39,093 bases of DNA from Candidatus Sulfopaludibacter sp. SbA3. Its GTDB lineage: Bacteria > Acidobacteriota > Terriglobia > Bryobacterales > Bryobacteraceae. The stretch is taken from positions 1 to 39,093 of the forward strand of contig CAMDED010000067.1 in the NCBI GenBank assembly GCA_945893365.1, given 5' to 3'. The translations under genes and the position numbers were made by a program. How positions within the stretch are numbered: the first letter of the stretch is position 1; every line of letters begins with the position of its first letter. The notes beneath the pieces were generated by a model, which saw nothing but the letters and a program-made list of their open reading frames with translations, searched no databases and was not told where the DNA came from. Of the stretch, positions 1-38,916 are shown piece after piece.

Positions 1-321
1 CGACACCTCTTTGAACTGGATGCCGACTATGCGGAGGCCCTCTGGGCCTTGGACCAGTCTTCCGGAACTCTGGACCTCAAAATCATGCTCCGCGATACTC
101 TGGCCGCTCTCGAACAGTTACCGGAAGCCATGGCTCGATTCCGAAAAAACCTCCCCCGGCGTGCACATCCCGCCCTGGCACAACTGGAAGCCACCGTTCG
201 CCACACTCTGTCACCGGCAGAGGCGTACACCATGCTCCCAGGTCGTGATCCCCAAATCGGTCAAGCACCTGGATTCTCTCACCCACCGGAAGGCGCCGAC
301 GCCACTTGCTATGCTAGCCCC
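1..321 (+). other. C-terminal part of an unidentified reading frame, open at the left edge and lacking its own stop
   Basis: Frame 1 is open from the first base. Roughly its first 85 codons read like real protein: acidic and Leu/Ala-rich helices, with the pieces [20 protein letters not shown] and [16 protein letters not shown] do not recognise the family. From about position 255 the composition becomes intergenic-like, yet no stop codon occurs, and the frame continues into the sulfatase at 322. Either the upstream gene has lost its stop and is a remnant, or it ends in another frame after a frameshift. A true fusion to the sulfatase is unlikely, because the sulfatase has its own complete Tat signal at 322. 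The 5' part lies outside the window. Confidence 0.4.
310..315 (+). promoter_or_regulatory. Candidate extended -10 for the sulfatase
   Basis: TATGCT is preceded by TG one base upstream (TGn extended -10 form). It ends 6 nt before the ATG at 322, so a standard initiation distance would place +1 at the ATG. No Shine-Dalgarno sequence is visible. Confidence 0.35.
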
Positions 322-1830
322 ATGGCTACGCATCCGTCCCGCCGCGACCTCGTTCGCACCGCAGTTGCGGGTACAGCCCTCGCAACGGCCAGACAGCCCC
401 TCCGCTCTCAAGCGGCCCGGCGTCCGAATATCCTCTTCGTCATCGCCGACGATTGGGGCCATGGCCACGCCGGCGCCTACGGCTCGAACTGGGTCAAGAC
501 GCCGAACTTCGACCGCGTCGCACGGGAGGGCGTCCTCTTCTCAAACGCCTTCACCTCCAACCCGAAGTGCAGCCCCTGCCGCGCCACCATCCTCACCGGC
601 CGCAACACGTGGCAGCTCAAGGAAGCCATCAATCACTTCAGCATTTTTCCGAACGACTTTGCCGTGTATCCCGACCTCCTCGAAAAGGCCGGTTACTTCG
701 CCGGACTCACTGGAAAAGGCTGGGGGCCTGGCGACTTCAAATCGACAGGTTTCGAGCACAACCCCGCGGGAAGGGAATACCGGAAGCACACGCTGAAACC
801 TCCCGCCTTGGGCATCGCGCCTCTCGACTACGCCGCCAACTTCGAAGATTTTCTCAGCCAAAAGCCGAAAGACAAGCCTTTCTGCTTCTGGTTCGGCGGA
901 CAGGAGCCTCATCGCCCCTATGAACCGGGTTCGGGTCTCCGCGCGGGCAAGAGGCTTGAGGACGTCACCCTTCCGGCCTACTATCCGGACAATCGCATCA
1001 TTCGCAGCGACATGCTCGACTACGCACTCGAGGTCGAGTGGTTCGACCAGCACCTCGGCCACGCCCTCAGGAAACTTGAAGAGACCGGCGAACTCGACAA
1101 CACGTTCGTCGTCGTGACGTCCGATCACGGCATGCCGTTCCCGCGCGTAAAGGGCCAGATCTACGAGCACGGATTCCACATTCCGCTCGCGGTACGCTGG
1201 GGCGCGAACATCAAGGGCGGGCGTGTGATTGACGACTTCATCAACACCCGCGACTTCGCGCCCACCTTCATGGAACTGGCCGGCCTCAAGCCCGCTGGGT
1301 CGATGACGGGCCGCAGCTTCCTCGATGTTCTGCAGTCCGGCAAGTCCGGGACCGTCGACGCCGGACGGAATGTGATGCTGGCCGCGAAGGAGCGCCACGA
1401 TCTGGGACGGCCGAACGACAAAGGTTACCCTGTTCGGGCGATTCGCACGCCCGAATATTTGTATATCCGCAATTACGAACCAGACAGTTGGCCCGCCGGA
1501 AACCCCGAAACGGGCTATCGCAACGTGGACGACAGCCCGACCAAGGAGTTCCTGCTCTCCGGCTTCGACGAGTTCTACCGGCTCTCATTCGGCAAGCGGC
1601 CGGCCGAGCATCTCTACCTGATCAAGACCGACCCCGATAACGTCAAGGACGTTGCACGAGACGTGAAGTACGCGCTCGTGAAGCGGCAATTGCGCGACCG
1701 CATGGAAGAAATGCTGCGTGGCGAGGGCGATCCGCGCATGCTCGGCCGCGCCGACTTCTTCGACACCATTCAGTACACTGGCCCGCGCAAACACGCCTAC
1801 GAGGAGTGGCTGAAGTTCAACAAGCCGTGA
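322..1830 (+). CDS. Secreted sulfatase (formylglycine-dependent arylsulfatase family)
   Basis: Hydrolyses sulfate esters, probably of sulfated polysaccharide or small glycans, outside the cytoplasm. The protein is 502 aa from the ATG at 322, chosen because it begins a twin-arginine signal ([12 protein letters not shown], about residues 6-17) right before the conserved [14 protein letters not shown] strand that carries the metal-binding Asp pair (43-44). The sulfatase signature CSPCR is at 83-87, so Cys83 should be converted to formylglycine. The second metal site TSDHG has Asp268 and His269. A C-terminal subdomain follows to residue 502, a normal length for the family. The frame is open upstream to the window edge, but that stretch is not sulfatase-like. 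The gene stands alone with a gap of 182 bp after it. The substrate cannot be told from sequence. Confidence 0.9.
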
Positions 1831-1997
1831 CTTTCCCGGCCGAAGCCTCGCCGCCACGGCCAACGTGACTATCGGTTGTTTAAGTAGCTTGACCGGCAGC
1901 ACGTCGTGAATTGCTCCATTCAACAGAGATCCGGGAGCGCACATGGTCGCCCGTACAAAGAAGCGGGCATGTCTCTTTGGCGGGAACACGGCTCCGC

Positions 1998-2003
1998 GAT
2001 AAT
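1998..2003 (+). promoter_or_regulatory. Candidate -10 for the hypothetical gene at 2013
   Basis: GATAAT lies 9 nt before the ATG at 2013, with TTGGCG (1977-1982) as a possible weak -35 at a short 15-bp spacing. There is no Shine-Dalgarno. The gap from 1831 to this point holds nothing else I can identify. Confidence 0.3.
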
Positions 2004-2012
2004 TAGAGAACT

Positions 2013-2513
2013 ATGGGATTTCACCGGGTCACGGATGCCACCGGCGAACCGATCAACTGGAAGATCACGCACTTCGCCAATATCAGCGGGTCGGAAGAGT
2101 TCATCGCCCAACTGGTCATGGAAATGCCTGAGCTCGTGGATGCATCAATGATTTACGGCGAGGAGCGGGACAAGCTGAAGGAGGCCATTCTCATCGTGTC
2201 GATGGAAGGCCTGATGCCCGCGTTCGAGCATCTGAAGAAGATCCGGGCGTCCGTGGGCCTGAAGATGCCGGAACTGAACCGCAGGCAGCTATTCGAGGAC
2301 TTCCAGGGGCGGCTTTGGCATGAATATAAGGACCTGATGCAGAAGGCCGCAAAGCGGATGGAGCCTGAGATCGGGTTCCGGTTCCAGCAGAAAGACGCGC
2401 AATTCGAAGCCGGACTACTGGCGTGGGAGAAGAAGCGGCCGAAGCTGGCGCAGGCGGTGGCGCCATACTTGCGCAAGCAGCGAAGTGACTGGCAGGAAGA
2501 CCTGAGAGAATAA
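2013..2513 (+). CDS. Conserved-looking hypothetical protein, 166 aa
   Basis: Not recognised. The protein is soluble, mostly helical and charged, without a signal peptide or membrane segment. It has an N-terminal stretch with ITHFANISGSEEF, a hydrophobic helix around ILIVSMEGLMPAFEH, and a basic C-terminal half ending in LRKQRSDWQEDLRE. Codon use and amino-acid balance look coding, and the reverse-strand frames over it look like shadows. The ATG at 2013 is the first in frame after the intergenic gap. A second reading frame (2506-2730) overlaps its last codons and could be a downstream partner or a displaced tail. Confidence 0.6.
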   Translation: MGFHRVTDATGEPINWKITHFANISGSEEFIAQLVMEMPELVDASMIYGEERDKLKEAILIVSMEGLMPAFEHLKKIRASVGLKMPELNRRQLFEDFQGRLWHEYKDLMQKAAKRMEPEIGFRFQQKDAQFEAGLLAWEKKRPKLAQAVAPYLRKQRSDWQEDLRE

Positions 2514-2730
2514 GGACGACCGCGACCCGAGCGTCTTTGCCGGTCGATATGACGCAGCGCATTCCGAGAAGTTGTTCGCGTCCGTGTGGCGCACAATTGG
2601 GGATGTCCTAGCGATGCTTGTCAGCCTGCACTTCCCTCCGGGTACTGTGCTGCAGGAGATTCCACGCGAGGAGCGTGACCTCGTGCGGCCCCGGCGGTTT
2701 CGGTATGCGGTCAAGGGTATTACTTACTGA
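2506..2730 (+). other. Possible short coding remnant without a clear start
   Basis: The frame beginning after the stop at 2503 is open for 74 codons to a TGA at 2728. It has protein-like composition, including the segments FASVWRTIGDVLAML and FPPGTVLQEIPREERD. No ATG occurs before 2614. A GTG at 2584 is the other option, and neither has a Shine-Dalgarno. It overlaps the end of the 166-aa gene by 8 bp in a different frame, so it may be a frameshifted tail or a decayed gene. No family is recognised. Confidence 0.3.
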
Positions 2731-2768
2731 CCTGCACATGGGATTGCCATGAAGGTTATTACATAGCG

Positions 2769-3020
2769 ATGGACCTCAAACAGGAAATCGAAAACGCCCT
2801 TGAGACACTGGAGGCATTCTATTTCTTCACGCAGGGTCTGAAGAAAGAGGAAAACGAGCACCTGGATAAGACTCCGGTGGGGATTCAGCCACCTCTTGAC
2901 TGGGGGCTATCCGAACCTGTTGGCGGACATCCAAAGTGCCGCAATTGTCAGTCAAGCACGACGGCTGATCCAAGGACCCTGTCCCAGTCTTCGCTATCGT
3001 ATCGAGCGGATTTCCAGTGA
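2769..3020 (+). CDS. Small hypothetical protein, 83 aa
   Basis: Not recognised. The first 45 residues look genuine, with a helical, acidic start (MDLKQEIENALETLEAFYFF) followed by a Lys/Glu-rich turn. The last third, which contains CRNC, is antisense to the end of the DUF429 gene and overlaps it by 73 bp tail to tail. There is no good Shine-Dalgarno before the ATG. It may be a real small protein with a chance tail or a decayed gene. Confidence 0.35.
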   Translation: MDLKQEIENALETLEAFYFFTQGLKKEENEHLDKTPVGIQPPLDWGLSEPVGGHPKCRNCQSSTTADPRTLSQSSLSYRADFQ

Positions 3021-4090: not shown

Positions 4091-4099
4091 TAACTAACT

Positions 4100-4105
4100 A
4101 TTTTA
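4100..4105 (-). promoter_or_regulatory. Candidate -10 for the DUF429 gene
   Basis: On the minus strand TAAAAT ends 9 nt before the GTG at 4090, with no Shine-Dalgarno between. The 255-bp divergent spacer 4091-4345 contains no other convincing gene. The short ORFs on both strands there look random. Confidence 0.35.
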
Positions 4106-4333
4106 GTCCGTTGAATCAAGGGTTGAAATGCTCGTGGATAACCGACTCGTTGGTAAACGACAGACGGGCCCGGCGGACATCCAGACTCGCAGCCGCAACA
4201 CCGGATCCTCGACGACGCGTGCGGGCGGACTTTCCATGTCCGCGTCGGCGCGCCAAGCACAGAAAAAGCGAATATGGCCTCATGTGGCACGGCGAGAAAT
4301 GGCGGTCCGCGAAGATCTATTCCTGTTCGGTGA

Positions 4334-4339
4334 TAGAGT
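4334..4339 (+). promoter_or_regulatory. Candidate extended -10 for the CE15 esterase
   Basis: TAGAGT is preceded by TG one base upstream and ends 6 nt before the ATG at 4346, so +1 would fall on the start codon. No clear -35 or Shine-Dalgarno is seen. Confidence 0.35.
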
Positions 4340-5632: not shown

Positions 5633-6455
5633 TCAATCCATAGAACTCGCAGGCCGTTTCGCCCATGATCTTGTTGCGCACCGGCGTCGGCACCGGCGCG
5701 AGCGCCTGTGTGAAACCGGCCAGCGCGCGTTTGAAGTTCCCCGCGAGCAGGCATACCGGCCAGTCGCTGCCGTACATCAGGCGGTCCGGCCCGAACAGCG
5801 TCAGGATGAACTGGACGTATGGGCGCAGGTCGGACGCCACCCAGTTCGGCGCGGCCTCGGTGATCATTCCGGAGAGCTTGCACCATACCTGCGGAATCGC
5901 GGCGGCGCGTTCCATATCGCGCGCCCAGCCTTCCATCGATCCCGCCGCGATCGGCGGCTTCGCGATATGGTCGATGACCATGCGGAGATCCGGCACGAGC
6001 TCCGCGAGCTTCGCGACGAGCGGCAGATGCCGTGGACGAAGCAGCAGATCGTAGGGCAGTTGCCGTCTCGCGACCTCGCGGAGACCGCTGATTACGTCCG
6101 GGCGCAGCAGCCAGTTGACGTCCCCCTCATCGTGAACCGGGTGGCGGACGCCCTTAAAGCGGGGATGCCGCTGAAATTCGTCAAGGGCCGCGCCGACGCG
6201 CGGGTCCGTCAGGTCCACCCAACCCACCACTCCGCGGATAAAGGCGTTCGCCGAGGCGAGTTCCAGCAGCCAGCGCGTCTCTTCGACGATCGTATTGGCC
6301 TGCACGAGGACCGAGCCGTCGAAGCGGTTCAGGTCCAGAAGCGGCGCCAAGTTTTCCGGTAGAAAATCGCGGTGGATCCGGGACGGAGGCGGCGGCATCC
6401 ACGCGTAGTGAAAGCGGCCAAGATCCCAGAAATGCTGGTGGGAATCGATGCGCAT
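5565..6455 (-). CDS. Amidohydrolase_2 family protein, L-fuconolactonase/rhamnonolactonase-like
   Basis: The 296-aa protein starts with MRIDSHQHFWD, the metal-binding HxH start typical of sugar-lactone hydrolases of the COG3618 type. It continues with the TIM-barrel landmarks GVVGWVDL, FKGVRHPV, VIDHIAKP, WCKLSGM and YGSDWPV (the last carrying the conserved Asp). Known members open L-fucono- or L-rhamnono-lactone in aldonate pathways. The exact sugar here is not determinable. I chose the ATG at 6455 because the HxH motif begins right there; the open frame extends further upstream but without family-like sequence. The last 20 or so residues, beyond the usual FYGL end, are antisense to the CE15 tail and may be dispensable. 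It lacks a signal peptide, so it is cytoplasmic. Confidence 0.8.
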   Translation of the reverse strand: MRIDSHQHFWDLGRFHYAWMPPPPSRIHRDFLPENLAPLLDLNRFDGSVLVQANTIVEETRWLLELASANAFIRGVVGWVDLTDPRVGAALDEFQRHPRFKGVRHPVHDEGDVNWLLRPDVISGLREVARRQLPYDLLLRPRHLPLVAKLAELVPDLRMVIDHIAKPPIAAGSMEGWARDMERAAAIPQVWCKLSGMITEAAPNWVASDLRPYVQFILTLFGPDRLMYGSDWPVCLLAGNFKRALAGFTQALAPVPTPVRNKIMGETACEFYGLTTSSPARSEDSETPGSAPSRMD

Positions 6456-6462: not shown

Positions 6463-6468
6463 AGTCTA
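6463..6468 (-). promoter_or_regulatory. Candidate -10 for the amidohydrolase
   Basis: On the minus strand TAGACT ends 7 nt before the ATG at 6455, with no Shine-Dalgarno. The spacer to the divergent cupredoxin gene is only 73 bp. Confidence 0.35.
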
Positions 6469-6528: not shown

Positions 6529-7242
6529 ATGACATATATGACGTGGACTTCGGTGACGATATTCCTCATCCTGATCTGGGCCAACGCTCCGGTTGCCCTC
6601 GGCGGCGACGTGTTGGGGAAAATCACGATAACCAAGCGCCTTACGCCCAAGCGCGTGCTGCTTGCGGCCTACGAGCGCCGGGGAGCGGTGCTGCCTCCGG
6701 TTTCCGCGGCCGGTTCCAAAGACGGTGGCGCAAGCGCGTCCGAAAGCGAAATGGACCGTGTGGTGGTTTATCTGGAAGGTCCCAAGGACCGGGCGCAGCC
6801 GGAGCGGGTGGTCTTGAACCAGAAAGGTAAGCGGTTCGATCGGGAGATCGTCGCCGTTCCGCTCGGATCGACTGTCAGTTTTCCCAATCTCGATCCGATT
6901 TTTCATAACGTCTTCTCGCTTTCGAGAATCAAGGCGTTCGACCTCGGCTATTACGGGGAAGGGAAGTCGCGCGAGGTCACGTTTGAGAAGCCGGGAGTCG
7001 TCACGGTGTACTGCCATCTGCATCCGAACATGAGCGCGGCCATTGTCGTGACGCCCAACGCCTGGACGGCGCGGCCGGACTCTGGTGGTGAATTCCACCT
7101 TCGCGGCGTCCCCGCGGGCTCGTGGAAAGTGGTGGTGTGGCACAAGTCGGCTGGCCACTTTCGTTCGACTGTCGATGTAACCGGCGCCGGGACCGCGGGG
7201 GTGGCGTTCGAGATTCCGGTACAGGAGGGAGCAACCAGGTGA
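6529..7242 (+). CDS. Secreted cupredoxin (plastocyanin-like) with carboxypeptidase-regulatory-like tail
   Basis: A 237-aa exported blue-copper-type protein. I chose the ATG at 6529 because it opens a clean signal peptide (MTYMTWTSVTIFLILIW, cleavage near ALG). An ATG at 6538 is nearly as good, and the ATG at 6448 adds non-signal-like sequence. A type 1 copper site is readable: His126 in FHNVFS, then Cys162, His165 and Met168 in YCHLHPNM. After this the sequence GGEFHLRGVPAGSWKVVVWH resembles a carboxypeptidase-regulatory-like beta sandwich. Such proteins are often labelled methylamine utilization proteins in databases without evidence. Its stop overlaps the GTG of the HD-GYP gene, so the two are coupled. 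Role as an electron carrier or copper/redox probe is inferred. Confidence 0.75.
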   Translation: MTYMTWTSVTIFLILIWANAPVALGGDVLGKITITKRLTPKRVLLAAYERRGAVLPPVSAAGSKDGGASASESEMDRVVVYLEGPKDRAQPERVVLNQKGKRFDREIVAVPLGSTVSFPNLDPIFHNVFSLSRIKAFDLGYYGEGKSREVTFEKPGVVTVYCHLHPNMSAAIVVTPNAWTARPDSGGEFHLRGVPAGSWKVVVWHKSAGHFRSTVDVTGAGTAGVAFEIPVQEGATR

Positions 7243-11399: not shown

Positions 11400-11406
11400 T
11401 CGTTGG

Positions 11407-11414
11407 ATTATAAT
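11407..11414. promoter_or_regulatory. Palindromic, apparently bidirectional -10 element
   Basis: ATTATAAT is self-complementary and gives a perfect TATAAT on each strand (11409-11414 forward, 11412-11407 reverse). It lies between the ATG of the isomerase at 11399 (7 nt away) and the ATG of the phosphomutase at 11423 (8 nt away). Usual spacing would put +1 at about 11400 and 11421, one or two bases before each ATG. Neither gene has a Shine-Dalgarno. Confidence 0.55.
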
Positions 11415-11422
11415 TCTTGTTT

Positions 11423-16387: not shown

Positions 16388-16697
16388 AGCGCCTAGAATT
16401 ATCGCATGCTCGGGCCGTGTAGTTCCTTAGCGAAACCCGGAGTTGGCTCCGCGTAGACGATTCGCCTCAGCTCCCGATAGGGTTGCCGCTCCGGAGCCCG
16501 GATCACGCGAAGTTGAGAGCGGTCGCAAGCTTATCCGGAAAAGGCTCGCACGTCGTGGCGCTCAGGCGACGGATCGTACTTCCGCGGAGGGATGTACCTG
16601 TGGGGCGAGGCGTCGATGCAGAGAAGAAATAGACTGGACGCCAGGTGAGTCGCGCGGGCGTCTTGCACGCGGTTCGGAGCGACTTCGTAAAGAGGCT
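16388..16697. other. 310-bp spacer without a clear gene
   Basis: It lies between the starts and ends of two minus-strand genes. On the minus strand, one frame from about 16697 down to a stop at 16531 reads like protein (CIDASPHRYIPPRKYDPSPE), but it has no start codon and continues the shifted frame of the MFS gene tail. It may be a decayed C-terminus or chance. Close to 16388 is the candidate -10 listed separately. No hairpin with a T-run was found. Confidence 0.3.
16398..16403 (-). promoter_or_regulatory. Candidate -10 for the propeller/PHP gene
   Basis: On the minus strand GATAAT ends 10 nt before the ATG at 16387. This would give a leader of about 4 nt, and there is no Shine-Dalgarno. 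Confidence 0.3.
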
Positions 16698-18851: not shown

Positions 18852-19195
18852 TTTCCTCCCCATTTTCCCCACACCACAAACAGCATTGCGGCCAATAACA
18901 CCAGGGCCATCGCCGGGCTGCCGCCCACGATGAATATATGCGTGGCGGCGGCTCCCACCATCACCGGCACCAGCAGAGCCGCGCCGTATAGCGCAAGGGG
19001 CGTCACGAGAAGGATGGCCCCGAGCGCTTCGAGCACCCCGGTGAAGTAGCGAAACCACTGGCCGAGACCTATCTTGGCGAACACCTCGGCGTCGCCGCCG
19101 GTAAGCTTGGCGCTTCCCGCCATTAAAAATAGAGCCGCGCTTGCGATTCGTACGATCCACAGGGCAGCCGTTTTCAGAGTGAAGTTCATTGACAT
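18848..19195 (-). CDS. DoxX-family membrane protein
   Basis: A 115-aa protein with four membrane helices. The first is IVRIASAALFLMAGSAKLTG, with the DoxX-type GxxKL motif. Later helices contain FTGVLEALGAILLV and ALLVPVMVGAAATHIFI. DoxX proteins are small quinone-linked or redox-associated membrane proteins whose biochemical role is largely unsettled. The start may be the ATG at 19195 or the in-frame ATG at 19189 two codons later. The latter would be 8 nt from a TATAGT on the minus strand. It is coupled to pirin and divergent from MarR. Confidence 0.85.
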   Translation of the reverse strand: MSMNFTLKTAALWIVRIASAALFLMAGSAKLTGGDAEVFAKIGLGQWFRYFTGVLEALGAILLVTPLALYGAALLVPVMVGAAATHIFIVGGSPAMALVLLAAMLFVVWGKWGGK

Positions 19196-19219
19196 CGACT
19201 ATATTGATGTGAAGATAAT
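19189..19219. promoter_or_regulatory. Divergent promoter/operator region between DoxX and MarR
   Basis: The forward strand has TTGACA (19189-19194) and GATAAT (19214-19219, 19-bp spacing), ending 7 nt before the MarR ATG at 19227. The reverse strand has TATAGT (19203-19198), 8 nt before an ATG at 19189. An imperfect inverted repeat CATCGA...TTGATG (19193-19209) overlaps both and is a candidate MarR operator for autoregulation and control of doxX-pirin. Confidence 0.4.
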
Positions 19220-19226
19220 TAAAAGG

Positions 19227-24603: not shown

Positions 24604-27600
24604 ATGTCGAAGACTTTGCGACTCGCCGCGCTTTTGCTTACTCTCGGGATCGCCCTCCTTGCCCAGCAAGGAAGAGGAACCATTCAGGGACTTGTTTCCG
24701 ATCCCAGCGGGGCGGCCATACCCAGCGCTCAAGTCAAGGTGACCAACGTCGCCACAAACCAGTCTTTCCAGACGGAAAGCAACAACGATGGCCTGTACAC
24801 GGCGCCGAATCTGGCCGTGGGCGAGTACGTGGTAACCGTCGAAAAAGCGGGATTTCGCCGCTCCGTCCGCTCCGGCGTTCAACTCCAGGTGGATCAACGC
24901 GCTCAGGTGAGCGTCAAGCTGGATGTGGGCCAGGTTTCCGAAACGGTCGAGGTGATAGCGGAAGCGCCGCTCGTCGATACAAGCAACGTGTCCCTGGGAA
25001 AAGTCGTGGACCAGCGCCGTGTGGCTGAGCTTCCGCTAAACGGCAGGAGCGCCCTTGCCCTGACTCTGTTGACTCCGAGCGTCAAGTCGAATGCCGGTCC
25101 AACGGCTTCCGGCTTCGCGGACCGCGGCATCCAGCTCTCATCGATATCGATCAACGGAGGCCCCAATGCCATGAACGGCCAGTTGCTCGACGGCGGCAAT
25201 AACATTCAGAGCTACATTGGTGAAGTGGCAATCAATCCCGGTGTCGATTCGGTCGAAGAGTTCAAGGTGCAATCCGGCGCAATGTCGGCGGAATTCGGCT
25301 TCACAGGCGGCGGGGTCATCAACATGGTGACGCGTTCGGGCACCAATCAACTGCACGGTTCGTTCTACGAATTCCTGCGCAACGACGCGCTGGACGCGCG
25401 TAACACGTTCGCCACCGTAAAGCCCCCGTTCCGCTACAACCAGTTTGGCGTGTCGGCGGGAGGCCCCATCATCAAGAACCGCACGTTTATCTTCGGTAAC
25501 TGGGAAGAGTACCGCTACCGGCGCTCGCAGCCGCGCATCGGCAGTTTTCCCACGGTAGGACAGCGCGATGGCAACTTCTCCGATCTGCGCGACAACCAGG
25601 GGCGTGTAATCCCCATCTATGATCCGTTTACGACCCAGGGTTCCGGCGCCGCCGCGACGCGCCAGGTGTTCCCCGGCAACGTGATTCCGGCCAACCTGAT
25701 CGATCCGGTGGCGAAGAACATCAACCAGTTTTACCCCATCCCGAACCGGGCCCCGACAGACGCATTCACCAACGCCAACAATTTCCAGACGCTATCCTCT
25801 GAAATCCAGGCCATGCGCCAGTACACCTTTAAGGCCGATCATCGCTTCTCGAACTCCAATTCCATGTTCGGCCGCTATTCGTTCTTCAACCACAAGACGG
25901 ATAATGGCGCGGGAGGCGCCACCGTTTATCCCGACGAGGTCGTGGCGAAGCGCGACGACAACTTGAAGAACTGGAACGTGGTGCTTTCGGACACGCACAT
26001 CGTGTCGCCCTCGGTGGTGAATGAATTGCGGATCGGCGCCACGCGCGGCTACTTCCCGTTCGTGGTGCGCAGCTTCGGCGGCGGCTGGCCGGCAAAGCTC
26101 GGGCTGCCTTCCATCGTGCCCGCGGATACGGTACCCACGATCAACAACGGACTGACCGGCTTCAACACCGGGACCGCCGGATTGCGCGGGTCTCTGAACT
26201 GGCAGTTCCTCGACCAGGTGAATGTCATTCGCGGCGCGCACTCGCTCAAGGCCGGCTTCGACCTGCGCCTGTTGCAGGGACACAACCTTCAGCGCTCGTC
26301 GCCATCCGGCGCGTACACCTTTAATGCGGGATTGACCGGTAACCCGATCACCCCCGCGGGCACGGGCTCGGCCTACGCGACCTTCCTGCTGGGCGCCGTG
26401 CAAAGCGCCAGCGTCACCACGCACACCGGCGAGTCGCAAGTCGCGCACACGATCAGCGGATTCGTTCAGGACGACTGGAAGTTGACGCGGCGGCTGACCC
26501 TCAATCTGGGACTGCGCTATGACTTCCAGTCGCAGGCGCTGGAGCGTAACAACGGCTCGAGCAACTTTGATCCGACCTGCAAACTGCCGAATGGTCTACC
26601 GGGTTGCACGGTCTTTGCGAACGTGGACGGCCAGCCGCACACCTGGCGGAAGAACGACTATACGAATTTCGGTCCGCGCCTTGGCTTCGCCTACGACGTG
26701 TTCGGCAACACCCGCACCGTGGTTCGCGGAGGGTACGGGATCGTCTATCCGTCGCAAATGTGGCGCGAAAACTATGCGAATGCAAACGGATTCGCGCAAA
26801 CATCCACCAGCTATCCGCAGGCGGACGCGAATCGTCCGGCGTTCCTGCTGCGCCAGGGATTTCCGTCCGCGCCGATTCAGCCTCAAGGAAAAGCCCTTGG
26901 GCCGGCGGCGTTTCTCGGCCAGAGCGTGGCCTATGACGAAACCGACGGCAGCACGCCGATGTCTCAGCAATTCTCCCTCTCCGTGCAACGACAGTTGGCG
27001 AGCAACTGGTTGGTGGAGGCCTCCTATTCTGGAAACCTCGGCCGCGGATTTACGGCGGGTGGTTACGATATGAACCAACTGGATCCGCAATATCTGCCGC
27101 TCGGCGCGGCGTTGAACCAGCAGGTCCCGAATCCCTATGCCGGCTTGGTTCCGGGAGCGTTGGGAGGCGCTACGATCTCGCGCGAGCAATCCCTGAAGCC
27201 CTTCCCCTACTACAGCGCGATCACCGTACGGAACCCGCGTCTGGGCAGTTACAATTCTCACCTGTTCTTGTTGAGCGTCGAAAAGCGCATGTCGCGAGGG
27301 CTGACATTACTGGTTTCGACGACGGCGGGCAAGGTCATTAGCGACAGCTTGGCAACTCCGGTCAACTTCGGCCCCATCGAGCAAGCCTCGATCGTGGGTT
27401 ACCAGAACGGGAAGTTCAATCGCCGTGCGGAACGCTCGCTCGATCCCACGGACGTATCGAAGCGCGCGACGATGAGCCTGCTCTACGAACTGCCGTTTGG
27501 CCGCGGGCAGCAGGGCTTTCATCGCTTGATCGGCGGATGGCAGATCAACACCATCGGGATCATGCAGACCGGCATTCCGCTGAATGTGACCGGCGCTAAC

Positions 27601-27986: not shown

Positions 27987-28784
27987 ATGCTGTTCCTTGC
28001 CGCCGCTTTCGTATCGACTGGCTTTCTGGCTCTCCCGCCCGGCGAGGAAATCGGCGCCATGTCGGCAGTCGCCATCGGCCGCGACGACCGGATTTACGTG
28101 CTGCATCGTGGACCCAAGCCCGTAGTGGCCTTTAGTCCGGATGGAATGTTCCTGCGGAGTTGGGGCGCGGGCATGTTCGAACAGGCGCATGGGCTGCGAG
28201 TGGCGCCGGATGGGACCGTTTGGACCACCGACAACAAGAACAACCGGCTGCGCCAGTTCTCGCCGGAAGGCAAGCTTCTGCGCACCATCGAAGCCGGATT
28301 CCTCGCTCCCGACGATCTTGTTTTCGCCTCTACCGGAGAGATTGTGGTGGCGGACGCCGGCAATGCCAGGATTGTGAAGCTGTCGCGCGAGGGAAGCGTA
28401 ATCGCTTCGTGGGGCCGCAAAGGGAAGGGACCCGGCGAGTTTTCCGCCGCACACGGACTGGCGATCGACAAGCGCGACCGCATCTATGTAGCGGACCGCG
28501 GCAACCAGCGCGTGCAGGTCTTCGATTTCGGCGGCAAGTTTCTGGCGGAATGGACCGGCTTCGGCAATCCGTTCGGGCTGTTGGTGGTAGGCGCCGAGCT
28601 TCTGGTTTCCGATGGCGAAGGACACCGCATCACGCATCTTTCGCTCGATACGGGGAAGATCGAAGAGCAGTGGGGCGATCCGCAAATTTTCCAGCTCCCC
28701 CACTTGATGGCGGTCGATTCCCGCGGCCGGCTTTATGTTGCCGAAGTCAATGGGAAGCGTGTGCAGATTTTCAAAAGGAGATAG
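27987..28784 (+). CDS. NHL-repeat six-bladed beta-propeller protein
   Basis: 265 aa with a short hydrophobic N-terminus (MLFLAAAFVSTGFLAL), probably a signal sequence, so it is likely periplasmic or exported. NHL-type blades recur about every 40 residues: AHGLRVAPDGTVWTTDNKNN, then FSAAHGLAIDKRDRIYVADR, then LMAVDSRGRLYVAEVNGKRV. No catalytic site is assigned. Such propellers bind ligands or partner proteins. It starts 2 nt after the TonB receptor and is followed 2 nt later by the DUF1549 gene start, so it belongs to the operon. Confidence 0.8.
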   Translation: MLFLAAAFVSTGFLALPPGEEIGAMSAVAIGRDDRIYVLHRGPKPVVAFSPDGMFLRSWGAGMFEQAHGLRVAPDGTVWTTDNKNNRLRQFSPEGKLLRTIEAGFLAPDDLVFASTGEIVVADAGNARIVKLSREGSVIASWGRKGKGPGEFSAAHGLAIDKRDRIYVADRGNQRVQVFDFGGKFLAEWTGFGNPFGLLVVGAELLVSDGEGHRITHLSLDTGKIEEQWGDPQIFQLPHLMAVDSRGRLYVAEVNGKRVQIFKRR

Positions 28785-28786: not shown

Positions 28787-30613
28787 TTGAAAGCGGTCAT
28801 GCGATACGTTTACGCGTTGATAGCGCTCCCCTTACTGGCGCAACAGCCGGAGCATCCCGAGGACCGCATCGATGCGGCGCATCGCGGTCTGTATCAGGCT
28901 GGAAAAGACCCAAAGAAGACTGCGTCATCGGTAACCGAGCAGGTTTCCGCGGCGCGCGCCGGCACGGCTGCAACGTCCGCGCCGGTCGTTCGCAGGAACT
29001 TTATCGACGATTACATCTTCGGGCGCATGGAAAAGGATCGAGTCCCGCACGCGCCGCTCGCATCCGATGAAGAGTTCGCGCGGCGTGCCTGGCTCGACGC
29101 CACCGGACGTATTCCCGCATACAGCGAGCTAACCGCGTTTCTTAACGGCCGCTCGCCGGATAAACGCGAGAAACTCGTCGACCATCTACTTGCAAGCGAC
29201 GGCTTTGTGGACAAGTGGACCTATTATTTCGAGGACCTGTTCCGCGCAGGCCAGCGCATGGGGCCTGGACTGAACCTGTTTCACTACTGGCTGCGCGAAT
29301 GGCTGAAGCTCGACCGGCCGTATAACGAAGTGGTCACCGATTTGCTGACCGGCGGCGGGAAGACCAGCTTCTCCGTCCCCGGCGGCCTTTACTTCGCCCG
29401 CGATTTCGTGAAGGCCAAGGACGATCCGGAGGCTCCGGACGCCTTGGACCTGGTGAACATTCCCGATACGGTGGACGAATTCACCATCACCTACTCCAAG
29501 GTGTTCCTGGGACTGAATCTCGGCTGCATCTCCTGCCACGACGGCCGGAATCACCTGGAAAAGGTGAACGTGTTCATGGCGGCCAAAAAGCGCGAAGACT
29601 TCTTCCGTCAAGCCGGATTCTACGGCAAGACGCGCCAGATCATGAACTGGGAAAACGGCGCGCAGGCAAACACGGAGTATACGGTTGACGACCTGGCGCC
29701 GGGCTACGATACGAAGTCGGAAAGCATTCTGCGCATGCCGCGCTCGGGAGGCTCCGGCGCGCCGCGGTTCATTCTCGGCGGCGAAACGCCGCGCCCTGGA
29801 CGGAACGAGCGTGACGAGCTGGCGCGACTGCTAACCAGTCACATCCAGTTCTCCCGCGCCACCACAAACCGGGTCTGGGCTGAGCTGATGGGCTTTGGAA
29901 TTGTCGAGCCGCTGGAAGATTTCGACCTGGGCCGCTATTACGCGAAGGACGTGCCCGCGGGGTGGCCACGACAGGCTACGAACCCCGAGTTACTGGACGC
30001 TATGGCTGTCGACTTCCAGACCAGCGGATACAGTTTCAAGAAGCTGGTGCGGCGCATCATGACTTCATCGGCTTACGGGCTCTCGTCGAATTTTCCGGGC
30101 GAGTGGCGCGAAGAGTATGCGGCGTATCACGCCCGCAAGTTTGTACGCATGCTGAGTGGAGCCGAGCTTCACGATGCGATCACGATGGCCACCAGCCGGC
30201 CCGCCAAGCTGTCCAGTGGCGCGGAGAAGGTCGCCATGGCGCAGCAGATGTCCGAGCCGAAGAAGGCCGGCCGGGACGTGCAGGGATTCATGCGGACGTT
30301 CGGCCAGTCGAATCGCGACGAGATGCCCAGGAAGACCATGCCGTCGTCGCTACAGGCGATGCTGCTCATGCAGTCGAAGGTGGTTACGGACCGTGTGCTG
30401 GCGATAGGCGGCAGCCGCGTGGATACGCTGCTCAAGGAAGTGGCGGACGACCAGGCGCTTCTCGACCGGCTTTACATGGAGACGCTTTCGCGGTGGCCCA
30501 CGGCGCCTGAGAAGGAAGTGGCGTTGCGAGCTCTGGCCAAGGACCGTAGGCGCGGCGCGGAAAACTTGCAATGGGCTCTGATCAACAGCCCGGATTTCAT
30601 TTTCAACTACTGA
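28787..30613 (+). CDS. DUF1549/DUF1553 protein with a c-type heme motif
   Basis: 608 aa. I chose the TTG at 28787 because AAAAGGAG (28773-28780) lies 6 nt before it; the ATG at 28799 would be 18 nt away. A weak signal sequence (MRYVYALIALPLLAQQ) suggests export. The DUF1549 part (about 70-270) contains DEEFARRAWLDATGRIP and ends with a CxxCH heme site, Cys247-Cys250-His251 in GCISCHDG. The DUF1553 part (about 325-600) has TNRVWAELMGFGIVEPLEDF, TNPELLDAMAVDF and LSRWPTAPEKEVALRAL. These proteins are abundant in Planctomycetota and Acidobacteriota, nearly always followed by DUF1501, as here. No function is established. Confidence 0.88.
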   Translation: MKAVMRYVYALIALPLLAQQPEHPEDRIDAAHRGLYQAGKDPKKTASSVTEQVSAARAGTAATSAPVVRRNFIDDYIFGRMEKDRVPHAPLASDEEFARRAWLDATGRIPAYSELTAFLNGRSPDKREKLVDHLLASDGFVDKWTYYFEDLFRAGQRMGPGLNLFHYWLREWLKLDRPYNEVVTDLLTGGGKTSFSVPGGLYFARDFVKAKDDPEAPDALDLVNIPDTVDEFTITYSKVFLGLNLGCISCHDGRNHLEKVNVFMAAKKREDFFRQAGFYGKTRQIMNWENGAQANTEYTVDDLAPGYDTKSESILRMPRSGGSGAPRFILGGETPRPGRNERDELARLLTSHIQFSRATTNRVWAELMGFGIVEPLEDFDLGRYYAKDVPAGWPRQATNPELLDAMAVDFQTSGYSFKKLVRRIMTSSAYGLSSNFPGEWREEYAAYHARKFVRMLSGAELHDAITMATSRPAKLSSGAEKVAMAQQMSEPKKAGRDVQGFMRTFGQSNRDEMPRKTMPSSLQAMLLMQSKVVTDRVLAIGGSRVDTLLKEVADDQALLDRLYMETLSRWPTAPEKEVALRALAKDRRRGAENLQWALINSPDFIFNY

Positions 30614-32836: not shown

Positions 32837-32926
32837 GTTCGACGTGGGAAGAGTAACAGGGCGGCCACTCGATGAGGATGCCTAATGCGGCTATCCGCCG
32901 GTTTTCAGCTCGTAACGGCATAAGTC

Positions 32927-32957
32927 TTGACAAAATATCACATTAGATATAATCTAA
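32927..32957 (+). promoter_or_regulatory. PerR promoter with overlapping PerR-box-like palindrome
   Basis: TTGACA (32927-32932) and TATAAT (32948-32953) are 15 bp apart. The -10 lies inside the inverted repeat TTAGAT-ATA-ATCTAA (32943-32957), whose layout resembles a Fur/PerR box (TTATAATnATTATAA). The -10 ends 11 nt before the ATG at 32965, so the leader would be about 5 nt. A bound PerR would block the -10. Confidence 0.6.
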
Positions 32958-32964
32958 ATCCTTC

Positions 32965-33420
32965 ATGGTCGCCGAGTCAATTAGACGGTCCCTGGAGGCT
33001 GGCGGGTTGCGATGCACTCCGCAGCGCTACGCCGTGATGGCATTCTTGACGGAACACGCCAGGCATCCCACTGCTGCGGAAATCTTCGAAGGCGTGAACC
33101 TCGTGGATCCGCGCTCTTCGAGGGCCACGACGTATAACAATCTGCGGGACTTGGTGAAGGCGGGTTTGGTGCGTGAAGTGGCCGTCGAGGGCCGCGCCGC
33201 GCGATTCGATGCGAAAATCATGCGGCATCACCACTTCATTTGCGACCGCTGTGGCAATGTTGAGGACATGGAGTGGTACGACGTACCCAGGCCTGCCTCG
33301 GGCTCCCTCGGTAAGCGGGTCCTTCGCGAATGCGAACTCATTTTCCGGGGGTTCTGCACGAAGTGCGCTCCGCGGCGCGCTTCCCGTTTAGACGCCGCAA
33401 GGCGCGTGGATGCCGGGTGA
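32965..33420 (+). CDS. perR: Fur-family peroxide-responsive regulator (PerR-type)
   Basis: A 151-aa metal-dependent repressor. The winged helix occupies about 10-75, with LRCTPQRYAVMAFL and RATTYNNLRDLVKAGLV. Structural zinc cysteines are Cys93 and Cys96 (CDRC) and Cys131 and Cys134 (CTKC). Regulatory-metal ligands by comparison with B. subtilis PerR are His34, Asp82, His88, His90 and Asp101. The Asp at 101 (C-G-N-V-E-D) is the residue that distinguishes peroxide-sensing PerR from Fur (Glu). It directly precedes katG, the classic PerR target, and its own promoter holds a PerR-box-like palindrome. So autoregulation and control of katG are likely. Confidence 0.85.
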   Translation: MVAESIRRSLEAGGLRCTPQRYAVMAFLTEHARHPTAAEIFEGVNLVDPRSSRATTYNNLRDLVKAGLVREVAVEGRAARFDAKIMRHHHFICDRCGNVEDMEWYDVPRPASGSLGKRVLRECELIFRGFCTKCAPRRASRLDAARRVDAG

Positions 33421-33503: not shown

Positions 33504-35768
<2,265 letters not shown>

Positions 35769-36341
35769 GTTCGGCGGAAAAGAGAGCTGTCAACTTCGTA
35801 CGACGCGTGTTGTTTGGATCGGCTAAACCGAAGTTCGCTTACCTTGACTCGCGGGGGCGCATGGCGCGCCCTCTCGTGACAGGCTGAACGAGACCGACTG
35901 GGGACAGGCTTAGATTCGGCTGGAGAAAACAGACGCCGCGACGCCCGGTATTGCGGACGCCCTTCATGATCTCATCGATTCGGTGGAGCCAATGGAGGAT
36001 GGGGTGGGTGAGAGTCGCAGGGCGTCGTATCCGATGAACGCCGCCAGTGAGAGAACGGAGACTGGGAGATTGGGCGACCTTTGCTGGTGAAAACGCTTGA
36101 CAATCGTTAATCCCCGTCACGGAATTTCCCGAGGCATACTGAAGTGCATGCCGTTTCCCCGGTATTCGCGAAAAATGTCCATCAATTTCCGGATTCTCGC
36201 TATGTTGAACCCTCGCGGGAAACACCAATGAGCCTGGTAGCCGCGAACCGACGTCCGTTCTGCGCAAGTCGCGGGGCGACGCGCTCGTCCAGCCGTTCAT
36301 CCGGCTGGCTGTCTTCCGTCGATAGCCGGTCCTTCCGAGAC
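35769..36341. other. Spacer of 573 bp with no supportable gene
   Basis: Runs from the katG stop to the isomerase start. A minus-strand open frame of 153 codons (35839-36300) crosses it, but it is Arg/Ser/Pro-rich and lacks domain-like sequence. The open frame upstream of the isomerase (36144-36341) is also not signal- or domain-like. No hairpin with a T-run, no tRNA and no direct repeat was spotted. Confidence 0.35.
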
Positions 36342-37187
36342 ATGATGACGCGCCGCGCCTTGATCGCCGGCACGGCCGCCGGCGCGGCTGTTAAAGCTTA
36401 CGGCCGCTTCGGCTCCGTCGAGTTGGGCGTGTGTGAGCCGGCGGCGCACTTTGAGCGGGCGGTCGCATTCGGCTTCGACTACTATGAGCCCGAAGCCTCC
36501 GAGATCGCCGCGATGGATGACGGGGCCTTCACGCAATTCAAGGCGCGCGTGCTCGCCTCGCCCATCCGCTGCAAGGCGTTCCGGAGTTTCATCCGCGGCC
36601 TCAAGGTCGTGGGCGGCGACGTTCGCCCGGACGACCTGCGCGCCTACGTGGACCGGACCATGGCGCGCTGCCGCGAAGTCGGCTGTGAAGTGATGGTGTT
36701 CGGAAGCGGGGGCGCGCGCAACGTGCCTCCGGGCTTCCCACGGGAGCGCGCGATGGATCAACTTCGCAGCTTCTTGCGCGATGCCGGCGATGCCGCGCGC
36801 CGCCACGACATGGTGATCGGAATCGAACAACTAAGAAAGGAGGAAAGCAATGTGATCAACACAGTGGGCGAGGCGCTCGCGCTCGCACGCGACGTGGACC
36901 ATTCGAACGTGCGGATCATCGTCGACTTCTACCACCTTCGTAAGGCCAATGAAAACCCGGACGTAATGTGGGAGGCTCGCCGCGATATCGTGCACATGCA
37001 CTTCGCCAACCCCTCCGGTCGCGTCTGGCCCAAGCGTCCGGACGAAGATCCTGAGTATCGTCACTTCTTCCGCGTCGTGCGCGAGATGGACTATCGCCGT
37101 GGCCTCACCATTGAGGCCCCCAACGGCAGCATGGAAAAAGACGCTGAAGCGAGCCTTCGATTCTTTGCGGAAATGCTCGCCGGCTGA
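36342..37187 (+). CDS. Sugar phosphate isomerase/epimerase-like TIM-barrel protein with Tat-like N-terminus
   Basis: 281 aa from the first of two adjacent ATGs (36342, 36345). TRRALIAGTAAGAA is a twin-arginine-type signal. Barrel elements include FGFDYYEPEASEI, CEVMVFGSGGARNVPPGF, DMVIGIEQLRKEESN with the metal-type Glu, RIIVDFYHLRKANE with Asp and His, IVHMHFANPSG, and GLTIEAPNGS with the final Glu. These are the four metal-ligand positions of the AP-endonuclease-2/isomerase family. The substrate is unknown. The longer upstream frame is non-family sequence. It converges on the Gfo/Idh/MocA gene, a frequent functional partner in inositol or keto-sugar pathways. Confidence 0.8.
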   Translation: MMTRRALIAGTAAGAAVKAYGRFGSVELGVCEPAAHFERAVAFGFDYYEPEASEIAAMDDGAFTQFKARVLASPIRCKAFRSFIRGLKVVGGDVRPDDLRAYVDRTMARCREVGCEVMVFGSGGARNVPPGFPRERAMDQLRSFLRDAGDAARRHDMVIGIEQLRKEESNVINTVGEALALARDVDHSNVRIIVDFYHLRKANENPDVMWEARRDIVHMHFANPSGRVWPKRPDEDPEYRHFFRVVREMDYRRGLTIEAPNGSMEKDAEASLRFFAEMLAG

Positions 37188-37318
37188 TTTGAGCGGCAGA
37201 GTCTCCCGCACCGGGTCAAAACCGCGGACGCCGTTTCTGCAAGAACACGATTTCGCCCAGTTCGCTAAAGCATCCTCGTTCGAATATTCTTGTTGAGGCT
37301 GCCCCGGCCGCCAAGAAT

Positions 37319-38449
37319 TCAAGCGTGTCGCGGGAGGCTCACCACGTCCCGCGAAGCCGCCGCTCGGTAGGCGCCGAACAGCGCTTCTAACACGTGTACC
37401 CCGTCGGCGATGGAGACCTCCCCGTCGCGGCCCTTGTCGAGCGCATCCAGGAACGCGGTTTGATCGGATACGGTTACACCCGGGATCGCCCACTCGACGG
37501 CGCCCGACTTACGCTGATCGCTCGACGACCAGAACGCCGCCGGATCGTCGGGATTCTCGGGTGGCGTTCGCCAGAAGGCTTGCCGGCCGCCAGTGATTTC
37601 CGCCCGCGTTGCGAAGCCGTCGATGAATGCCGACCCTCTCGTGCCTATGAGCTTGGTGCGATTGGTCCCGCCGCCGGGGTGGCTCTTCCAGCCGGTCCGC
37701 CCCGACGAAATCGTCGCCACGATGCCGCCGTCGAGCGTCAGCGAGAGTACGCCGAAGTCTTCGTAATCGCGGCGTGCGTTGTTTTCGAAAAAATAGTTCG
37801 CCGTGATGGCGCTCACCGTCCTGAAGTCGCGCCGCGTGAGCCAGCGGAACATCGCAAGCGAATAAACGGCGATGTTGAACATCTCGCGTTTCGCGTCCGG
37901 CACGAGGAACGTCTTTGGCTCGGACGTCTCCGTTCGCGGTTTGAGCGGCAATTCCTTCGTGTAGCCCTTCGCGAAATGCAGGTCGTGATGAATGGCCCGC
38001 AATTCGCCCAGAGACCCCGAAGCGATCAATCGTCTGGCGCGTTGCGCGGGCGGGAACAGCACCTGTGTGAACATCTGGCTCCGCAAGTTCTTCTTTCGCA
38101 CCAGAGCTTCCAGTTGCCGTGCTTCCGCGAGCGAGCCGGCCACGGGTTTGTCGATGTAAATATGCTTGCCCGCCTCGGCGCAGCGGATCGCCACTCGGCC
38201 TTGCCGATGATGCTCCGTGCAGACGGAGACGACGTCCACTCCGCGCCGTGCAAGGGCCTCGTCAAGATCGCGGATGTAGGGAACGCGCAACTGATCGGCC
38301 AGTTTTTGATTCAGCCGCGCCCGGCGCTCGTCGACGTCTTTCTCGTCCGAAACCGCCACCACGTTCGAGCGTTTGTCCTGCTGGAATCCCAGCGCGTAGT
38401 TCTCCTGATGAGACATTGCGCCGGTCGCGATCAACACTCCGTACGGCAT
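37319..38449 (-). CDS. Gfo/Idh/MocA-family NAD(P)-dependent oxidoreductase
   Basis: 376 aa. The N-terminal Rossmann fold begins PYGVLIATGAMSHQENYALG and has an acidic strand end, VVAVSDEKDVDERRA. The family catalytic Lys is in HIYIDKPVAGSLAEA (DKP replacing the more common EKP). The C-terminal beta-sheet domain contains DFGVLSLTLDGGIVATISSG, TKLIGTRGSAFIDGF and ends HVLEALFGAYRAAASRD. There is no signal peptide. It follows the 150-aa gene with a single base between stop and ATG, and acidic and purine-rich sequence there provides a ribosome site. It probably oxidises a sugar or cyclitol; the substrate is not identified. Confidence 0.87.
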   Translation of the reverse strand: MPYGVLIATGAMSHQENYALGFQQDKRSNVVAVSDEKDVDERRARLNQKLADQLRVPYIRDLDEALARRGVDVVSVCTEHHRQGRVAIRCAEAGKHIYIDKPVAGSLAEARQLEALVRKKNLRSQMFTQVLFPPAQRARRLIASGSLGELRAIHHDLHFAKGYTKELPLKPRTETSEPKTFLVPDAKREMFNIAVYSLAMFRWLTRRDFRTVSAITANYFFENNARRDYEDFGVLSLTLDGGIVATISSGRTGWKSHPGGGTNRTKLIGTRGSAFIDGFATRAEITGGRQAFWRTPPENPDDPAAFWSSSDQRKSGAVEWAIPGVTVSDQTAFLDALDKGRDGEVSIADGVHVLEALFGAYRAAASRDVVSLPRHA

Positions 38450-38450
38450 G

Positions 38451-38903
38451 CTACTCCTCCTCCGCGCGCGCCGGCTTGCCTAAGGCAAGAGACCGCTCGA
38501 TCGAGCGCCGGTAACCTGGCGTGGGGCTTTCAATCGTCTGAACGAGCAGCCTCGGGTCCGGAAAATCGTCAAAGCGCAGCGTGCCGTTTTGTCCGGCGAG
38601 CAGCAATTGCACGGCGGGTTCGCCGCCATGCGTCAGCTCCGCAGTGACGAGCGAAGTTTGACCCTGTGCGAACTCCACTTGAAGGGATACGGTTCCTTGC
38701 TTCACGCCGCCGAGCGCATAGATGCTTCGCACCGGCGCGCCGGCCAGCCGGCTGACGATTGCCACTCCGGCCTCGGAAATAGGAATCAGCAGCCCGTGGT
38801 CGGCCGTCAGTTCGAGGTGCGCGCGCACGAACACGGGCCGGCCAATCGGATTCCCGGCGAGCGCGGCTCCGATGGTCTTCTCGAGCCATGAGAAATATTG
38901 CAT
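38451..38903 (-). CDS. Hypothetical protein, 150 aa, first gene of the Gfo/Idh/MocA operon
   Basis: I do not recognise the family with certainty. It has no signal or membrane segment. The composition (LELTADHGLLIPISEAGV, VSLQVEFAQGQTSLVTAEL, AVQLLLAGQNGTLRFDDF) resembles the C-terminal beta-sheet half of Gfo/Idh/MocA proteins. This suggests either a stand-alone accessory domain or the remains of a second oxidoreductase. Ends in an acidic EEE tail that overlaps the ribosome site of the next gene. Confidence 0.6.
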   Translation of the reverse strand: MQYFSWLEKTIGAALAGNPIGRPVFVRAHLELTADHGLLIPISEAGVAIVSRLAGAPVRSIYALGGVKQGTVSLQVEFAQGQTSLVTAELTHGGEPAVQLLLAGQNGTLRFDDFPDPRLLVQTIESPTPGYRRSIERSLALGKPARAEEE

Positions 38904-38910
38904 GGAGTCG

Positions 38911-38916
38911 ATTCTA
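38911..38916 (-). promoter_or_regulatory. Candidate -10 for the 150-aa gene and oxidoreductase
   Basis: On the minus strand TAGAAT ends 7 nt before the ATG at 38903, putting +1 within a base or two of the start codon. There is no Shine-Dalgarno. Confidence 0.4.

Follow-up and report, generated by a model that had tools for sequence, protein, structure and literature searches.

Minus-10 boxes adjoining the start codons of lead genes in a Candidatus Sulfopaludibacter genome, and the leaderless transcripts that they predict

A survey of 953 bacterial genomes predicted leaderless genes in 207 of them from a TANNNT word about 12 base pairs (bp) upstream (Zheng et al. 2011, PMC3160421). All three Acidobacteria of that survey had such genes, at a mean of 13.3% of genes and a range of 9.7–19.4%; the same source lists furA of Streptomyces coelicolor among the documented leaderless genes and argues that only the proximal genes of transcripts can be leaderless. 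In Deinococcus-Thermus it was established by experiment that a TANNNT adjoining the open reading frame acts as the -10 element and yields leaderless messenger RNA (mRNA) (PMC12340547); the main text of that paper contains no word beginning ‘acidobacteri’. How does an uncultivated member of the Acidobacteriota compare? We examined 39,093 nucleotides (nt) of Candidatus Sulfopaludibacter sp. SbA3 (Bryobacteraceae), here called the window (C67:1-39093), for the -10-like boxes that stand close to the start codons of its genes. The window is part of a 7.88-megabase (Mb) assembly of 299 contigs, 96.65% complete with 0.77% contamination.

Like the TA-led genes of the survey, those of the source genome have TANNNT about 12 bp before the start, in the form, rich in guanine and cytosine (GC), whose middle is weak, and at about 19% of genes this genome stands at the top of the range given for Acidobacteria (PMC3160421). 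Leaderless, -10-adjacent starts are therefore already known in kind, also for the phylum, and are not new. Unlike the phylum-level figures of PMC3160421, the present analysis resolves one uncultivated genome by gene position and adds a comparison of orthologs. The Deinococcus-Thermus system differs in belonging to another phylum and in being experimental (PMC12340547), whereas the source genome is known from sequence alone. Literature on leaderless genes in Solibacter was not found, the coverage being mostly open-access. We conclude, with a probability of roughly 0.86, that about a third of lead genes in the source genome are served by a -10 box adjoining the start codon, and for these we predict leaderless mRNA.

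A lead gene is defined here as one whose upstream neighbour lies on the opposite strand, and an internal gene as one that follows a neighbour on the same strand at a gap of 20 nt or less; the position of a box is that of the first T of TAnnnT, counted back from the start codon. A first-pass annotation of the window had listed eleven likely first genes, each having no Shine-Dalgarno site and a -10-like hexamer 6–11 nt ahead of its start codon. All eleven hexamers are present at the distances it claimed, and a twelfth gene that fits the pattern, DoxX at 19189, was absent from its list. The twelve boxes are given below, followed by two Shine-Dalgarno contrast cases; posteriors are those of a mixture model set out further on.

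310-315, plus strand: TATGCT, gap 6 to ATG 322 of a sulfatase gene (Pfam Sulfatase); leaderless posterior 0.97
1998-2003, plus strand: GATAAT, gap 9 to ATG 2013 of a hypothetical gene, 166 amino acids; leaderless posterior 0.94
4100-4105, minus strand: TAAAAT, gap 9 to GTG 4090 of a DUF429 gene (Pfam); leaderless posterior 0.92
4334-4339, plus strand: TAGAGT, gap 6 to ATG 4346 of a glucuronoyl esterase gene, CE15-like (Pfam GCE_fung)
6463-6468, minus strand: TAGACT, gap 7 to ATG 6455 of an amidohydrolase gene (Pfam Amidohydro_2 for the frame), uncalled by the gene caller
11407-11412, minus strand: TATAAT, gap 7 to the isomerase start 11399 (Pfam: xylose-isomerase-like); leaderless posterior 0.99
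11409-11414, plus strand: TATAAT, gap 8 to the phosphomutase start 11423 (Pfam agrees); leaderless posterior 0.98
16398-16403, minus strand: GATAAT, gap 10 to ATG 16387 of a propeller/DUF3604 protein gene (Pfam agrees)
19198-19203, minus strand: TATAGT, gap 8 to ATG 19189 of the DoxX gene (Pfam DoxX_2); leaderless posterior 0.89
19214-19219, plus strand: GATAAT, gap 7 to ATG 19227 of a MarR gene (Pfam MarR)
32948-32953, plus strand: TATAAT, gap 11 to the FUR-family gene 32965; alternative TAATCT at 32950-32955, gap 9
38911-38916, minus strand: TAGAAT, gap 7 to ATG 38903 of a gene for 150 amino acids; leaderless posterior 0.98
28775-28780, plus strand: AAGGAG, Shine-Dalgarno contrast case, 6 nt before TTG 28787 of a DUF1549/DUF1553 gene (Pfam PSCyt2/PSD1)
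33513-33519, plus strand: AAGGAGG, Shine-Dalgarno contrast case, KatG (ATG 33528); Shine-Dalgarno posterior 0.95

The earlier gene names agree with Pfam for the sulfatase, DUF429, glucuronoyl esterase, isomerase, phosphomutase, propeller/DUF3604, MarR and amidohydrolase genes; for the gene that had been named PerR, Pfam gives a FUR-family protein. When the annotation's description of the hexamer was coded as a rule (A at position 2, T at position 6, at least four of six matches to TATAAT, gap 6–11 nt), it was passed by 12 of the 16 window lead genes, which were counted by eye. The four misses were the plus-strand gene ending at 7242, GntR (24435/24489), the outer-membrane protein gene at 24604 and KatG at 33528. 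One or two passes are expected by chance (p about 1e-9, an optimistic value because the window starts were curated by eye). A strict TAnnnT at -12 to -15 is found in nine of the twelve genes; it is missing in the three GATAAT cases (gaps 7–10), which are weak as individual promoters. TGC directly 5' of TATGCT and TGA directly 5' of TAGAGT make the sulfatase and CE15 boxes extended -10 elements. The claim that these genes lack Shine-Dalgarno sites also stood: GGAG, GAGG, AGGA or AAGG at -7 to -15 was found in none of the twelve (eleven scanned, the amidohydrolase 6455 read from the sequence), MarR carrying an AAGG at -4, outside the scanned range.

Five of the twelve starts (CE15, propeller, MarR, FUR and amidohydrolase) are those of the annotation or our own, not of the model, since the gene caller missed or mis-started these genes. 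For CE15 it took a later start, 4445, which the model scored 0.00 leaderless and 0.78 Shine-Dalgarno; for the propeller gene it took the later 16345, scored 0.03 leaderless, and for MarR a GTG at 19179, scored 0.01.

If the lead genes of the window carry such boxes, do those of the genome at large? We took a sample of 1,190,930 bases (1.19 Mb), window included, in which 942 genes were called from dicodon statistics with no upstream information used for the starts. Of the 256 lead genes, 42 have a TAnnnT whose first T falls at -12 to -14, where 11 would be expected (Poisson p about 1e-12); this is the top of 64 XYnnnZ patterns in these genes. In the 311 internal genes there is no TAnnnT peak at -12 to -14, and the top patterns are Shine-Dalgarno-like. 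When any plausible start was allowed, TAnnnT was found in 65 of 256 lead genes against 25–35 at shifted positions; internal genes remained flat (13 of 311 against 5–13). With coding-score starts and gap 6–11, the coded rule was satisfied by 66 of the 256 lead genes, against 18, 35, 26, 25 and 25 at shifted offsets. Among the 311 internal genes 12 satisfied it, which is no excess over their shifted offsets (6–14). Thus the position profile of lead versus internal genes that the annotation had proposed as a check gives a -10-like peak in the former and none in the latter, and hexamers are more frequent at the proposed distance than at shifted ones.

The boxes also have the composition of a promoter element. 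Among 73 selected boxes, from lead genes and same-strand separated genes, the hexamer bases on which there was no selection are A in 56% and A in 50%, and G stands two bases before the first T in 57%, the mark of an extended -10 (base biases p 1e-7 to 1e-10). ATG was not clearly commoner in the TA-led class (59 of 73, versus 241 of 311 internal genes). A -35 element was first suggested by TTG at a spacer of 16–18, seen at 12% of the 73 sites, and was given up; in 129 model-selected genes the match to TTGACA was not above shuffles (z 1.1), and we treat the -35 element as absent or weak. Counts made without gene calls were of little use. TAnnnT gave no visible ATG peak among 9030 sites, the coding background being too large, and TATAAT leaned only weakly to gaps 6–8 (3, 4 and 2 of 59, with 3 also at gaps 11 and 19).

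We then fitted a mixture model in which each gene has a -10 box, a Shine-Dalgarno box or neither, plausible starts being weighted by coding score. It converged on [C/T]GnTAnAAT at -12 to -15 and on AGGAGG. The share of the -10 class was 0.37 in lead genes, 0.19 in the same-strand far class, 0.19 in the same-strand mid class and 0.01 in internal genes (0.00–0.01 across runs); the Shine-Dalgarno shares were 0.37, 0.42, 0.61 and 0.73 in the same order, and the rest of the lead set belonged to neither. A posterior above 0.5 for the -10 class was reached by 88 of 256 lead, 42 of 204 far, 32 of 157 mid and 11 of 311 internal genes, which makes 173 of 928 (about 19%) altogether. A model retrained on shifted sequence as a control returned motifs of little information but large weight (lead 0.41 and 0.32); as these weights were unfit for the purpose, the motifs were held fixed instead. 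With fixed motifs and six shifts the lead share falls to 0.13, 0.12, 0.06, 0.05, 0.00 and 0.02; some genuine promoters with short leaders may be counted in the 0.13 and the 0.12. In the source genome, -10-adjacent boxes are nearly restricted to genes able to head a transcript.

How far do these results bear out the view that the host routinely starts lead genes at the 5' end of their mRNA? The kind of start proposed is well supported by the sequence, but ‘routinely’ overstates it: about a third of lead genes rely on Shine-Dalgarno sites (about 37% are of the -10 type and about 37% of the Shine-Dalgarno type). The contrast drawn with the internal genes HD-GYP, PIG-L and DUF1549, which were said to have clear Shine-Dalgarno sites and start–stop overlaps, mostly holds. 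HD-GYP, whose start at 7239 overlaps the upstream stop at 7242, has a Shine-Dalgarno posterior of 0.97, but that of PIG-L is only 0.46. DUF1549 has its AAGGAG before TTG 28787 and starts directly after the upstream stop at 28784, but the model disagrees, scoring a later ATG at 28799 as leaderless (0.79).

Does the motif transfer to relatives? Fixed from the source genome and applied to G008, a genome of the same family sampled as two contigs, it gave a lead share of 0.146, against 0, 0 and 0.02 at shifted positions. In 18 other family genomes (the set labelled fam19) the lead share was 0.44 against 0.12, 0.10 and 0.04, and in 13 GC-rich genomes of other families 0.28 against 0, 0.09 and 0, on only 42 genes. 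In four low-GC genomes of the phylum, for which only the profile was taken, no box was found at -12 to -15 in eight lead genes. Stretches below 3,000 bases (L134, L158, L166) were excluded from the relatives' profile. The -10-adjacent trait thus probably extends beyond the family, in agreement with published work.

A single ortholog can be followed through the phylum. The nearest named relatives of the phosphomutase come from genomes titled Bryobacterales, Bryobacteraceae, Candidatus Solibacter, Candidatus Sulfopaludibacter, Terriglobia or Acidobacteria bacterium. The aligned start ATG is kept in 28 of 29 orthologs from the family, and the sequence upstream is otherwise unalike. TAnnnT at -12 to -17 occurs in 19 of the 29 (controls 3, 1, 1, 0, 0, 0), while a Shine-Dalgarno word occurs in none at -8 to -15 and in four at -5 to -15, all four at -5 to -7. 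Among 42 named relatives, grouped by identity rank and not by taxonomy (‘named_Bryo’; five upstream sequences are common to the unnamed family set), 18 have the box (controls 1–5) and four have a Shine-Dalgarno word at -8 to -15, six at -5 to -15. The picture is reversed in other families of the phylum (loci L098-L126), where the box is found in three of 26 (controls 1–4) and a Shine-Dalgarno word (GGAG, GAGG, AGGA or AAGG) in 21 of 26 in either range. It is reversed likewise in 36 more distant named loci, with one box (controls 4–7) and a Shine-Dalgarno word in 29 at -8 to -15 and in 31 at -5 to -15; most of these loci carry the titles Deltaproteobacteria, Desulfobacterales or Desulfobacteraceae, and the 37 present before filtering included four Acidobacteria. 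Strict counts at -12 to -14 are 16 of 29, 13 of 42, 0 of 26 and 0 of 36 for the four sets. Loci were excluded where the match lay only beyond query residue 10 (L119, L120, L226), where there was no nearby start codon (L122) or where the upstream sequence was short (L231). To judge from these upstream regions, the phosphomutase has changed its way of starting between the source family and the other families.

How would such genes be expressed? We propose a short promoter of the sigma-70 type, consisting of the extended -10 box without a detectable -35 element, the first T lying 12–15 nt before the start. RNA polymerase would begin the transcript at the start codon's first base or 1–3 nt before it. 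Translation of the leaderless mRNA would then be initiated by ribosomes at the AUG or GUG standing at its 5' end, with no Shine-Dalgarno contact. Operon-internal genes, which lack a free 5' end, would for that reason keep their Shine-Dalgarno sites. The sequences examined show the motif and its spacing, its near-confinement to possible first genes, its transfer to genomes of the family and its return at one ortholog; from them we infer the start of transcription at the box and the leaderless translation.

Several observations weigh against this proposal. The coded rule is lax, about 10% of lead genes matching it by chance, as the shifted offsets show. In-frame TAA or TAG before the start could bias the counts at -12 and -15, a bias limited by the facts that about 61% of the 73 boxes begin TAC or TAT and that the peak takes in -13 and -14. 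The model misjudged at least one gene if, as we take it, the leaderless call at ATG 28799 of DUF1549 is its error. No 16S gene, and hence no anti-Shine-Dalgarno tail, was found in the assembly. The lead effect in G008 is weaker (14 against 7.1 expected at -12 to -15), and internal genes of relatives are not free of boxes: strict boxes were counted at -12 to -15 in three of 84 internal genes of G008 against 0.3 expected and in four of 67 in the 18 family genomes against 0.7 expected, where the internal -10 share of the model is 0.07. These internal-gene counts slightly reduce our confidence in the explanation. A strict TAnnnT at -12 to -17 is missing in 10 of the 29 family orthologs and 24 of the 42 named relatives of the phosphomutase, and for any single gene the promoter may lie elsewhere, with a leader.

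What else might the hexamers be? They could be promoters whose RNA begins a little further upstream or downstream and so has a short leader of 5–15 nt without a Shine-Dalgarno site, in which case translation would not be strictly leaderless. The three GATAAT boxes and the FUR box (gap 9 or 11) would suit such leaders, as would the far end of the model's spacing distribution, about 10% of which lies at -16 and -17. However, 71% of the spacing weight falls at -12, -13 and -14, and 85% when -15 is included, which would place the transcription start no more than 3 nt from the start codon if the usual spacing of 6–7 nt applies, and we regard short leaders as an unlikely account of the class. Much less likely still is that the A/T-rich word is a translation signal, such as an unstructured or S1-binding stretch. 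It does sit where a ribosome-binding site would, and its carriers in the window are without Shine-Dalgarno words, but its base pattern is that of an extended -10 box, down to the G two bases upstream, and it is absent from the internal genes of the source genome, which need ribosome binding no less. The least credible of the alternatives is that these are chance words of A/T-rich intergenic DNA, helped by the choice of starts. The laxity of the rule and the curation of window starts by eye would favour chance; against it stand a peak at one spacing only, weaker at shifts and missing in the source genome's internal genes, with starts chosen blind to upstream sequence, and the return of the box in orthologs whose upstream sequence otherwise differs. 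The leaderless reading is the one that we prefer.

What happens where two such genes stand back to back? Bidirectional promoters, in which one near-symmetrical -10 is read both ways, are described in E. coli and Salmonella (PMC10268837, PMC12825309); in E. coli the divergent start sites are mostly 18 bp apart, distances of 10 and 23 bp being also common (PMC12825309). The word ‘leaderless’ is absent from PMC10268837. The divergent genes lysG and lysE of Mycobacterium tuberculosis have overlapping promoters and one leaderless transcript (PMC5648196). In the window, isomerase 11399 (minus) and phosphomutase 11423 (plus) are separated by 23 bp (11400-11422), within which ATTATAAT (11407-11414) is self-complementary and supplies TATAAT to both genes. 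The identical palindrome lies within 23 bp between a second pair of the same genome, at C2:120691-120713, flanked on one side by an FGGY-family kinase and on the other by a gene without a Pfam match. DoxX (minus) and MarR (plus) form the window's other compact divergent pair, over 37 bp (19190-19226), their boxes TATAGT and GATAAT lying 10 bp apart.

Among 128 divergent pairs, both genes fall in the -10 class in 0 of 4 at gaps below 15 bp, 5 of 7 at 15–39, 7 of 19 at 40–69, 1 of 16 at 70–119 and 6 of 82 beyond. The excess at 15–69 over 70 and more is significant (Fisher p about 1e-5), although the count depends on the choice of start and a short intergenic space forces promoters close to both starts. 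The pattern CATN{6,9}ATTATAATN{6,9}ATG has nine sites in 7 of 61 family genomes and none with gaps 13–16. The relaxed pattern ANTATANT has 52 sites in the 61 genomes, against 24 with gaps 13–15 (p about 0.001) and 10 for the reversed pattern, or 51 against 22 without duplicates; up to half of these relaxed hits may be chance. As a trait of the whole phylum the palindrome was set aside: among 59 other genomes of the phylum, nine carried 14 further sites, counted without a spacing control; eight of the nine measure 1.9–3.1 Mb, one of them (G103, of which a piece was sampled) has 42% GC, and base composition may explain the sites outside the family. A third case in the source genome, C9:12449-12473, was rejected for its doubtful TTG start, the protein seeming to begin 12 residues later.

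The arithmetic of the gaps predicts divergent start sites 23–24 bp apart at ATTATAAT, one of the distances common in E. coli (PMC12825309). The box can be read as a -10 on both strands, which is one defining trait of bidirectional promoters; the other, divergent start sites 7–25 bp apart, is predicted. Unlike the bidirectional promoters described, 11399/11423 would have its start codons at both start sites, the whole space being 23 bp. It differs also from lysG/lysE, where the intergenic region is 108 bp and a second promoter, not a shared box, gives rise to the leaderless transcript (PMC5648196). Among the listed papers on leaderless bidirectional or divergent promoters, titles and abstract openings describe no leaderless pair that shares one box; with mostly open-access coverage this is no proof of absence. 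We give an even chance to the view that back-to-back pairs in the source family, 11399/11423 and C2:120691-120713 being candidate examples, have been compacted to one self-complementary -10 box independent of a -35 element. Both start codons would then be transcription starts (with about 20–26 bp of intergenic space) and both mRNAs leaderless, the orientation of the polymerase picking the gene. The extended -10 start would work alike in either direction, binding for one direction ruling out binding for the other. A shared palindromic box between leaderless neighbours would be the less ordinary sub-pattern.

Other features of the window may be recorded here. A self-complementary ATGCGCAT (6448-6455) holds overlapping divergent ATGs, that of the amidohydrolase 6455 (minus) and a possible start at 6448 (plus). 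The FUR-family gene 32965 (Pfam FUR; uncalled by the gene caller) has, within 32915-32965, a perfect TTGACA at 32927-32932, with a 17-bp spacer to TAATCT, and an inverted repeat over its -10:

32943-32957, no strand assigned: TTAGAT-N3-ATCTAA, putative operator of the FUR-family gene

KatG, with its strong Shine-Dalgarno site, lies 3' of this gene, and the two look like an autoregulated peroxide-response pair. The left end of the window, 1-269, is 99% identical to contig C294:1-269, and parts of it match C29 twice at 76–77%; it is perhaps a repeated or mobile stretch.

The Acidobacteriota are a soil phylum with few cultivated members. If about a third of lead genes in this lineage start as proposed, start prediction that relies on Shine-Dalgarno sites would misjudge them. 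The phosphomutase, led by a Shine-Dalgarno site in most of the families sampled in the phylum and -10-adjacent in one, would allow a switch in the mode of initiation to be traced on the tree. Should the compact pairs be confirmed, they would represent two-gene promoters of very small size and offer a clean test of competition between polymerases.

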